Origin: a virus
Reading direction: 5' to 3' (one strand)
Length of the DNA: 42,547 nucleotides
Virus record (IMG/VR): IMGVR_UViG_3300045999_007964
Location: 1-42,547 of that record
Shown: in pieces, positions 5,753 through 38,358 of the stretch
Numbering within the stretch: the first letter of the stretch is position 1
How the letters are laid out: every line of letters begins with the position of its first letter
Translations under genes and position numbers: made by a program
Notes under the pieces: generated by a model
Told to the model about the DNA's origin: nothing
The model's input: the letters and a program-made list of their open reading frames with translations, nothing else
The model's database searches: none

Positions 5753-6406
5753 ATGTTAAATCATATTGAACGGATTAAAATTCTTCCAGAACTGGTAGTT
5801 AAACTGCATTACAATTTTGATTTTGAAAATTCTCTAAAGTCAAAGTGTGATGAGACTATTGAATACTCAAAAAAACAAGAAGAAAAAGTTCCACTTGAAT
5901 ACGGAGACGCTGTTTCTACAGTTGTCCATAACGTAAATGGACAACCTCATACCTGGATCGAAAATAAAAAATTCATTCAGTTTCTAAATGCAAATCTACC
6001 ATATATTCTAAAAGAGTTTGGTTTAGCGCATCAACCAATTACTGTTTCAAATTCTTGGGTTAATCGCCACTCTAAGGGTGGAGAAACTCTTGAACACAAG
6101 CATCAATTTGTTGATTTGGTTGTGAGTTCTTATTTGTTTTGTCCTGAAGGAAGTGGTAACTTGCTTGTCAGAGATCCTTTAGAATATCATAGATGGAATG
6201 ATGTTTTAGAAAGTGCATATTTTAAAAAACAAAAGTACCAATATCCTTGGGTTGAAGTTCCAGTAAAGACTAATGATGTTCTTATATTTCCTGGGTGGTT
6301 AAATCATAAAACTGAAAAGAGTAATATTGATATAGATAGATATGTCATGACCACTAATTTAAAATATGGCCCGGGTGGTCCAATGATGAGTCCCGGTATG
6401 ACTTAA
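5753..6406 (+). CDS. 2-oxoglutarate/Fe(II)-dependent oxygenase
   Basis: 217 residues, in the size range of phage 2OG-Fe(II) oxygenases with the double-stranded beta-helix fold. Visible signatures are SNSWVNRHSKGGETLEHKHQ with the first iron ligand region, VVSSYLFCPEGSGNLLVRDP in the core, and VLIFPGWLNHKTEKSN with the distal His followed by RYVMTTN. These enzymes hydroxylate proteins, nucleic acids or small molecules, releasing succinate and CO2. The substrate is unknown. They are frequent in cyanomyoviruses and may sense or adjust 2OG, the host nitrogen signal; that role is inference. Confidence 0.82.
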   Translation: MLNHIERIKILPELVVKLHYNFDFENSLKSKCDETIEYSKKQEEKVPLEYGDAVSTVVHNVNGQPHTWIENKKFIQFLNANLPYILKEFGLAHQPITVSNSWVNRHSKGGETLEHKHQFVDLVVSSYLFCPEGSGNLLVRDPLEYHRWNDVLESAYFKKQKYQYPWVEVPVKTNDVLIFPGWLNHKTEKSNIDIDRYVMTTNLKYGPGGPMMSPGMT

Positions 6407-6719: not shown

Positions 6720-6926
6720 ATGAATAAAACACCATATGAACTTCGGTTCGAAATTTTCAAACAAGCATATGCTATGCTTTCAGATAATTATCATGTAGAG
6801 TTTGCGAAAGCAGAATGTGGTAATGGTGGCACATTACCAAAAGACTTTAATGTACAATATCCAAGTCTTTCAGATGTGCTTTCACAAGCAGAAGCAATTA
6901 ATAACTTTATTTCTGCTACAAAATAG
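6720..6926 (+). CDS. Hypothetical 68-residue protein
   Basis: Soluble, with an amphipathic N-terminal helix (TPYELRFEIFKQAYAMLSDN) and C-terminal helix (SQAEAINNFISATK). No recognised domain. It is the last gene before the structured spacer and terminator at 6930-7061. Confidence 0.65.
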   Translation: MNKTPYELRFEIFKQAYAMLSDNYHVEFAKAECGNGGTLPKDFNVQYPSLSDVLSQAEAINNFISATK

Positions 6927-6929
6927 GTT

Positions 6930-7017
6930 TCTTGCCATTCCTTAAAAAGGCAAGTGGTGCGGATGGGGAATTCTTTCTCCGCCTGGTTTCCAATTTCCAG
7001 TTAAAGAATTGGTGGCG
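6930..7017 (+). other. Structured RNA region upstream of the glycan operon
   Basis: No gene. Three local helices: CTTGCC/GGCAAG (6931-6936, 6949-6954), GCGGA/TCCGC (6959-6963, 6978-6982) and CCAATT/AATTGG (6990-6995, 7007-7012), the last extendable by CGCC/GGCG, which would compete with the second. Two mutually exclusive pairings before a terminator are what a cis-regulatory RNA would show. Known cyanophage RNA motifs such as wcaG or manA are candidates; I cannot confirm either by eye. Confidence 0.45.
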
Positions 7018-7033
7018 AGCCTGAGTTACATAA

Positions 7034-30479: not shown

Positions 30480-30650
30480 AAATAGGTAAACAAATGTTAC
30501 GAAACTTAAACATTCTGTAACACTGTTAAACTCCCCGTAAACCGAGACCTCTAGGGAGTATAAATGACGTCTCTCATATCCCCGCTGAGGGTGCGGGGAA
30601 CATAGTAACTCCACCATTTCCCTGATGGTCTTACTAACTGTTTAATAACA
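30480..30650 (+). other. Structured psbA leader, possible pseudoknot
   Basis: About 165 bases without a gene. ACTCCC (30530-30535) pairs GGGAGT (30554-30559). GAGAC (30544-30548) in its loop can pair GTCTC (30569-30573) outside it, giving an H-type pseudoknot. A further hairpin CCCCGC/GCGGGG (30590-30608) follows. Conserved PhotoRC RNA motifs are known upstream of psbA in cyanobacteria and cyanophages, so this leader is a candidate member. Confidence 0.6.
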
Positions 30651-37894: not shown

Positions 37895-37920
37895 CTGTAT
37901 CATATTATACAGAAGTTTTT
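37895..37920 (+). terminator. Weak terminator before the riboswitch promoter
   Basis: CTGTAT-CATATT-ATACAG and, three bases later, TTTTT. The end of the T-run is the first base pair of the next -35 box (TTGCAT). Confidence 0.55.
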
Positions 37921-37947
37921 GCATAACTATACTAACAGGTCTATAAT
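37919..37947 (+). promoter_or_regulatory. Promoter of the glutamine riboswitch unit
   Basis: TTGCAT (37919-37924), 17 bases, TATAAT (37942-37947), about seven bases before the riboswitch. Confidence 0.8.
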
Positions 37948-37953
37948 GACCTT

Positions 37954-38050
37954 ACGTTCATCCCTCTGGGACGGAAGTAAGCCGACGCGGAACGGATCGT
38001 TCATTCGCTATTCGCAAATAGCGAACGCAAACGCCGACTGAAGGAACGCT
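37954..38050 (+). promoter_or_regulatory. Glutamine riboswitch (glnA / Downstream-peptide type)
   Basis: P1 CGTTC (37955-37959) pairs GAACG (38044-38048); a small TCCC/GGGA helix follows; then the conserved GGGACGGAAGTAAG (37968-37981) and, near the end, CTGAAGGAACGC, which are the ligand-binding segments of the glnA/Downstream-peptide class. Between them lies an expansion containing a 9-bp hairpin TTCGCTATT/AATAGCGAA (38004-38025) and a direct repeat GCCGAC. Known members sense L-glutamine and control nitrogen genes. The peptide gene starts 31 bases downstream with a Shine-Dalgarno AAGGAG, so translation control is plausible. Confidence 0.87.
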
Positions 38051-38080
38051 CTTTAACCTAAAAAACTAAGGAGAAACCTA

Positions 38081-38218
38081 ATGTCAAAAGTAGTTTATCG
38101 TGGAATCGAATATGATACTGAAAAGCGTATTGCATATCAACAACAGATGATGCAACAACCCCAACAATACAACGAAACCTATCGTGGTGTTAAGTTTGTA
38201 AAGGAGGGACATAAGTGA
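38081..38218 (+). CDS. Riboswitch-controlled DUF4278-like peptide
   Basis: 45 residues. Two YRG[IV] motifs, VVYRGIEYD (4-12) and ETYRGVKFV (33-41), flanking a Gln/Met-rich middle (YQQQMMQQPQQYN). YRGV-type repeats are the DUF4278 hallmark, found in small cyanobacterial proteins linked to PII nitrogen signalling, and short peptides are typical products behind this riboswitch class. Probably adjusts host nitrogen or amino-acid metabolism according to glutamine. Target is unknown. Confidence 0.75.
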   Translation: MSKVVYRGIEYDTEKRIAYQQQMMQQPQQYNETYRGVKFVKEGHK

Positions 38219-38316
38219 TGCAGAAACTTAACGTACTTCAACTCATTAAAGAGCAGAAGCAAAAAGAAGAGAGGCGTCGTAAGGCATCTCTTGCTACCCT
38301 GGTAGCAGCAAAATAA
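38218..38316 (+). CDS. 32-residue charged peptide, second gene of the riboswitch unit
   Basis: ATG overlaps the preceding TGA (TGATG) and has GGAGGG upstream. QKLNVLQLIKEQKQKEERRR then KASLATLVAAK is one amphipathic helix. Translationally coupled to the DUF4278-like peptide, so glutamine control should extend to it. Confidence 0.6.
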   Translation: MQKLNVLQLIKEQKQKEERRRKASLATLVAAK

Positions 38317-38320
38317 TTTA

Positions 38321-38349
38321 GAGGAGTGCTTGACACTCCTCTTTTTTTT
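38321..38349 (+). terminator. Terminator containing the next -35 box
   Basis: GAGGAGTG-CTTGA-CACTCCTC (8-bp stem) and eight T. The loop and 3' arm carry TTGACA. Confidence 0.88.
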
Positions 38350-38358
38350 GTCTATAAT
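38330..38358 (+). promoter_or_regulatory. Promoter nested in the terminator
   Basis: TTGACA (38330-38335), 17 bases, TATAAT (38353-38358); both perfect. Start codon 22 bases downstream. Confidence 0.85.

Follow-up and report, generated by a model that had tools for sequence, protein, structure and literature searches.

Comparative analysis predicts two interleaved glutamine-aptamer units with one shared P3 helix in the leader of a cyanophage YRG-peptide transcription unit

Comparison with related modules showed that the leader at 37955-38049 is made, at the level of predicted structure, of two glutamine-aptamer units interleaved head to head, with one P3 in common. The 5′ half of unit 1 (S1) and the 3′ half of unit 2 (S2) form a predicted outer aptamer of canonical glutamine-I type; the 5′ half of S2 and the 3′ half of S1 form a predicted inner unit, which is circularly permuted. 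This nested twin, together with a switch that would be ON with glutamine, putative IF17-like peptides downstream and genes in the P2 arms of relatives, is the best explanation overall, and we consider it quite probable.

The window, that is the whole stretch of DNA analysed, is a 42.5-kb IMG/VR virus fragment of 42,547 nt (IMGVR_UViG_3300045999_007964). The SpeD and ThyX neighbours, ten tRNA matches and the wcaG and PhotoRC-II RNAs mark it as T4-like cyanophage, and the virus infects marine or freshwater cyanobacteria. The wcaG RNA (6923-7026, 92 bits), located 5′ of a sugar-nucleotide epimerase-like gene, and the PhotoRC-II RNA (30518-30613, 84 bits) are both typical leaders in cyanophages. 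One abiF RNA (RF03085) was matched at 697-733 within the phage tRNA cluster with 50.7 bits (cut-off 37); abiF RNAs are part of an abortive-infection system. There is also an ORF at 5753, the putative 2OG oxygenase of the original prediction; the analysis gave no support to the interplay suggested for it.

The leader belongs to a self-contained transcription unit composed of promoter, structured leader, genes for a YRG peptide and a charged peptide, and terminator (Table 1). The transcription start would be located about 7 nt 3′ of the promoter, which is the 5′ end of P1, and most relatives have a comparable promoter in the equivalent position. The next gene has a perfect sigma-70 promoter (TTGACA-N17-TATAAT, 12/12, 38330-38358), sharing sequence with the stem of the unit's terminator.

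Table 1. Features of the transcription unit and of its leader in the window
Feature	Position	Strand	Basis or remark
Sigma-70-type promoter TTTGCA-N18-TATAAT	37918-37947	+	10/12 consensus matches
Unit S1	37955-37994	+	comparison and RF01739 match
S1 outer P1, 5′ strand	37955-37959	+	followed by A37960
S1 P2a	37961-37964/37968-37971	+	
S1 core CGGAAGUA	37972-37979	+	
S1 P3, 5′ strand	37980-37987	+	followed by CG
S1 inner P1, GAACG	37990-37994	+	
Unit S2	37998-38048	+	comparison and RF01739 match
S2 inner P1, CGUUC	37998-38002	+	followed by A38003
S2 P2b hairpin	38004-38012/38017-38025	+	the 9-bp hairpin of the original prediction
S2 CGCAAA	38026-38031	+	
S2 P3, 3′ strand	38032-38039	+	
S2 GAAG	38040-38043	+	
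S2 outer P1, 3′ strand, GAACG	38044-38048	+	
Shared P3 helix, 37980-37987 (S1) with 38032-38039 (S2)	37980-38039	+	six pairs plus C.A and A.C; covariation
Outer long-range pair G37974-C38049	37974-38049	+	presumed equivalent of crystal G23-C60
Inner long-range pair G37995-C38028		+	counterpart of the outer pair
Hairpin 38049-38055/38067-38073 over Shine-Dalgarno AGGAG (38069-38073)	38049-38073	+	C38049 common to the aptamer; in the MFE fold
45-aa YRG peptide, divergent DUF4278 (phrog_5049)	38081-38218	+	Pfam sub-threshold; PHROG match
32-aa charged peptide	38218-38316	+	ATG overlaps the preceding stop (TGATG) by one base
Intrinsic terminator, stem 38320-38342 and T tract	38320-38350	+	overlaps the promoter of the next gene

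RF01739 matched the leader twice, both times below the cut-off of 35 bits: 33.1 bits at 37996-38052 and 22-31 bits at 37953-37998. In the upstream match the 5′ half (CGUUCA-P2-CGGAAGUA) fits well and the 3′ half poorly; in the downstream match the 3′ half (GAAGGAACGC) fits well and the core poorly. These two matches are halves of a single interleaved structure, and the score stays below the cut-off, as expected of a model unable to bridge the interleaved inner unit. The nested architecture therefore explains why Rfam sees half matches alone at these loci. Similar half matches were found in other cyanophages, and the relatives L003, L008, L011 and L014 exceed the gathering cut-off. Taking the 5′ half of S1 with the 3′ half of S2, all core elements of RF01739 (P1, P2, CGGAAGUA, P3 and GAAG) are present, and G37974-C38049 supplies the glutamine-I long-range pair, with compensation in all 123 modules.

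With these elements kept in the outer unit, the sequence agrees with the original prediction of a phage-coded glutamine-class riboswitch, and the strong promoter that it proposed is also there. Of the two Rfam families that it named, RF01739 was matched, albeit sub-threshold, but glutamine-II (RF01704) reached only 16.2 bits against a cut-off of 33; the latter identity was rejected, the P3 partner lying inside outer P1 in the supported topology. The 9-bp hairpin, described there as an unusual expansion, does exist, but it is P2 of the second unit and not an arbitrary expansion. It has one copy in the window (chance expectation 0), and the palindrome as a repeat within the window was rejected on this single copy. 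With small variants, the palindrome TTCGCTATTYGCRAATAGCGAA is found in P2a of L007, L035, L052, L061 and L130 and in P2b of the window; across lineages it sits in P2 of either unit, as though it had been exchanged between the arms.

The 123 distinct modules were collected from named Kyanoviridae and IMG/VR contigs through BLAST and by scanning with a sequence pattern, which constrained the 3′ half of S1 and the 5′ half of S2 and left the partner strands free; the parser demanded both outer P1 strands in each module, so the invariance of P1 across modules is partly imposed by the collection. Variants of the unit-1 GAACG were scanned for separately, and none was found save L149, in which part of the inner unit is naturally deleted and the outer unit is intact. 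According to P3, 64 modules are of a long type, 54 of a short type and five of other types.

A cellular origin of the twin was rejected. The GTDB scan gave 14 matches, of which the module-bearing ones are on phage-like contigs where checked (L148 among them), and the remaining ones resemble chance and have no second unit. L142 (NZ_RMVE01000006.1) is a 188-kb contig filed as the flavobacterium Nonlabens xiamenensis and 98% identical to cyanophage P-TIM40 (8 kb examined); this contig is contamination of a species-representative assembly.

The shared P3 was revealed by covariation, which holds over the 123 modules and in alignment A1. Among the 64 long-type modules, position 1 of P3 is A-U in 58, G-C in three, C-G in one and G-U in one, with one break, and position 8 is U-A in 39, G-C in 12 and A-U in ten, with three breaks. 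The 54 short-type helices are AGUCG/CGACU with few variants, and the other five pair GGACGG with CCGCCC or CCGACC. In the window, AGCCGAC(G) of S1 pairs with (C)GCCGACU of S2. Two P3 positions, C.A and A.C, are mostly non-canonical.

The long-range pairs separate the nested topology from a tandem one with local pairing. When nested, the outer pair is C-G in 104 modules and G-C in 19, with no exception, and the inner pair is C-G in 119, G-C in two and C.A in two. When paired locally, mismatches appear at each long-range site in 18-19 modules, leaving 105/123 intact versus 123/123 for the nested topology; in alignment A1 the corresponding counts are 26/34 and 34/34. A rough, weakly supported tree of the downstream gene, built from short sequences, implies at least 11 flips of the outer pair. 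The nested P1 topology was also obtained by RNAalifold unprompted, and the nested fold was more stable than the tandem fold in 35/35 ORF-less modules. The covariation score of the nested structure was 0.267 versus 0.076 for shuffled alignments, and its pair counts far exceed those of shuffles and slides. P1 itself never varies, so its topology rests on the long-range pair, the folding energy and the match to the crystal aptamer.

The solved aptamer reads CGUUG-P2-CGGAAGUA-AGGCCC..GGGCCU-GAAG-CAACG-C, and in the glutamine-I aptamer G22 and G23 of CGGAAGUA make critical long-range interactions solely in the ligand-bound state (PMC5393176). The outer aptamer has the same order of elements as this crystal sequence. 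In the structure of Ren et al. 2015, G23 reportedly pairs with C60, the base immediately 3′ of P1. We take G37974-C38049 to be the equivalent of this pair, placed by the numbering of the printed sequence.

The inner unit keeps P1, P2 and the long-range pair, its P1 is closed by a loop of 3-6 nt, and it has no E-loop of GUA and GAAG. This missing E-loop agrees with a reading in which only the outer aptamer is functional, its P3 being elaborated, and the inner unit is a ligand-free structural cap or a place where cargo genes insert; so do L149, whose outer unit stayed whole, and the simple P3 loop of host aptamers. However, the inner P1 is invariant, covariation is seen in P2b, and the inner long-range pair persists through two swaps from C-G to G-C, a conservation beyond the requirement of a cap. 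We give this reading slightly less than an even chance. A family RNA whose ligand was changed or lost, leaving only a leader structure or translation-coupling element, would fit the sub-threshold Rfam scores and the flip of the G23-C60 equivalent to C-G in most relatives, but it is improbable given that the outer unit keeps all glutamine-aptamer core elements and compensates at the ligand-dependent pair, and that the downstream gene family is the one under experimentally proven host glutamine riboswitches (PMC6316151). Two ordinary tandem aptamers acting in series with pseudo-cooperative control, for which speak the RF01739 score of each half alone, P1 sequences permitting local pairing and a tandem-riboswitch survey counting 157 glutamine doublets as pseudo-cooperative tandems (PMC9481103), are highly improbable and were rejected: S1 has no GAAG and S2 no GUA, therefore both units are incomplete, P3 covaries between the units and has no conserved local version, and the long-range pair fails locally but its outer site never breaks when nested.

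Downstream of the nested twin, a YRG-motif ORF with a Shine-Dalgarno sequence was found within about 75 nt 3′ of 115/123 modules, and seven of the other eight modules reach the contig end. The first protein of the transcription unit is, as had been proposed, tiny and DUF4278-like with two YRG motifs: its match to Pfam DUF4278 (PF14105) has an E value of 0.001 and 19.8 bits (cut-off 25.3), and PHROG 5049 was matched at 2e-11. Close relatives of the same module exceed the Pfam cut-off (26.0 and 31.5 bits), therefore the peptide of the window is regarded as a divergent DUF4278 relative. The overlap of start and stop at 38218 likewise bears out the translational coupling of the second, charged peptide. 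The statement that this peptide is not a known partner needs partial correction: other phages have its helix fused to YRG proteins, at the N-terminus in Bellamy and S-SM2 and at the C-terminus in S-CREM1. The N-terminus of phrog_545 proteins is made of this same module, which was recognised solely through such fused proteins, the peptide as query against phages giving no match. These fusions suggest that the YRG and charged peptides of the window may act together.

A link to PII through the YRG motifs had been expected, and it was not supported. PirA, the known PII-binding peptide, is reported as "completely absent from marine picocyanobacteria", and the PirA paper makes no mention of DUF4278 or YRG (PMC8092223). 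In IF17, which inactivates glutamine synthetase, DUF4278 forms the N-terminal part, and host glutamine riboswitches usually control a DUF4278 gene (PMC6316151). By this analogy, DUF4278 points to inactivators of the IF17 type rather than to PII. Inactivators of the IF17/IF7 class join a DUF4278 N-terminus to an inhibitory C-terminal domain; in the window the YRG module gave a weak DUF4278 match, and the charged helix had no Pfam or NCBIfam match. From family knowledge, the YRG and charged peptides may act like IF17/DUF4278 regulators of glutamine synthetase, and they would slow host ammonium assimilation or tune the amino-acid supply during infection.

The window belongs to a clade with G-C at the outer long-range pair. 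In 17 of the 18 modules of this clade with sufficient downstream sequence, CUCUUUA just 3′ of the aptamer pairs with UAAGGAG and hides the ribosome site; DSL-LC02 is a clade member without this hairpin. Host glutamine riboswitches turn on the translation of IF17 (DUF4278, glutamine-synthetase inhibitor) as glutamine rises (PMC6316151; PMC11288750). In the window, glutamine would bind the outer site, and perhaps also the inner one, and the pair G37974-C38049 would form, withdrawing C38049 from the Shine-Dalgarno hairpin and exposing the ribosome site. C38049 is needed by both the ligand-dependent pair and the hairpin, therefore a simple ON switch would result, and this suggests for the window's clade that the YRG peptide and its coupled partner would be translated at high glutamine. 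A simple estimate of how far the Shine-Dalgarno sequence is exposed gave no consistent direction over the clades as a whole (16/34), so the mechanism is argued for the window's clade only, the one in which a conserved Shine-Dalgarno hairpin was seen.

Complete small ORFs were found within a P2 arm in 88 of the 123 modules: P2b (inner) carries one in 79, P2a (outer) in 26 and both arms in 17. The other 35 modules have hairpins only, including the window, whose P2 arms are small hairpins without ORF. The P2b ORFs have 49-69 codons. Pairwise comparison showed purifying selection on the inner ORFs, with pN/pS of 0.31 for P2b (54 pairs) and 0.30 for P2a (19 pairs). The ORFs belong to PHROGs 504, 6471 and 13397, without known function, and some are annotated as ordinary genes in GenBank. 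L026, L041, L050, L082, L121, L131 and L134 contain ORFs in both arms. With their hydrophobic N-terminus and their conserved Cys and His, the P2a proteins (phrog_6471) resemble small exported proteins.

The inner ORFs are fitted closely to the RNA. All 79 modules with a P2b ORF form the first four pairs of that arm, in which several pair types occur. In 71/79 the AUG has its A within the P2b stem, and the stop codon, usually inside the aptamer core, is exactly 7 nt from the module end in 73/79, as U-GA or U-AA at the P3/GAAG boundary. In the short-P3 class, the linker GAG becomes a GGAG ribosome site in 45/45 modules with ORF versus 0/9 without; a test on independent pairs gave the same direction, with just 3-5 informative pairs and p of 0.06-0.25. 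Translation of the inner gene would unfold the aptamer, and the folded aptamer would conceal the inner start codon. The two states would be mutually exclusive, therefore the same switch would toggle two genes. Tentatively, leaning a little against it, we propose that one leader may toggle between two proteins, the inner one when glutamine is low and DUF4278 when it is high, and that the shared P3 may couple two ligand sites.

Single aptamers with local P3 were found in host Synechococcales, and most of those seen precede DUF4278 proteins with three YRG motifs. One host locus, L152, is a plausible candidate for the ancestral form: its aptamer is single, with phage-like sequence and a local P3, and the locus shows no similarity to phage. 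Cyanophages and other marine phages are already known to carry glutamine riboswitches, AG-345-P14 being named among the former (PMC9004378). The AG-345-P14 RNA (L011) and the 'glnA riboswitch' of S-CREM1 (L006) belong to the set of 123 modules; these RNAs and the tandem doublets were reported as ordinary or tandem riboswitches, and the literature that could be searched makes no mention of a shared P3, of nesting or of ORFs inside the aptamer.

If true, the architecture is undescribed in the searchable literature, and aptamers interleaved by exchange of P3 would be an RNA counterpart of domain swapping. Most relatives would carry a complete gene in an aptamer arm with its stop codon in the binding core, a gene within a sensor arm being unreported for a riboswitch in that literature, and ligand sensing would be linked to translation of the sensor itself. 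It would also offer a testable way for very abundant cyanophages to sense the nitrogen state of the host and to influence glutamine metabolism.

The cyanophage modules share with glutamine-I (glnA or type 1, RF01739; PDB 5DDP) the P1 CGUU.., P2, the CGGAAGUA core, a P3 starting with A-U and GAAG; moreover, the base after P1 pairs with the second G (or C) of the core, and a DUF4278 gene lies downstream. They differ in that P3 of glutamine-I is a local hairpin, whereas the cyanophage P3 opens into a second, permuted unit, and P2 of relatives holds ORFs. With glutamine-II (Downstream-peptide or type 2, RF01704) they share a similar core (CGCA..), a C-G long-range pair and, in picocyanobacteria, small YRG/DUF4278 peptides downstream. 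P3 of glutamine-II is a pseudoknot with sequence 3′ of P1, whereas P3 of the cyanophage module is nested between two units. The glycine riboswitch also has two homologous aptamer units in one RNA before one gene, but they are serial and joined by a linker, and the cyanophage units are interleaved with a helix in common. As in group I introns with ORFs in peripheral loops, a protein gene is held in a loop of a structured RNA with conserved core; unlike these introns, the cyanophage RNA is not self-splicing but a metabolite aptamer, and the ORF stop is located in the predicted ligand-binding core.
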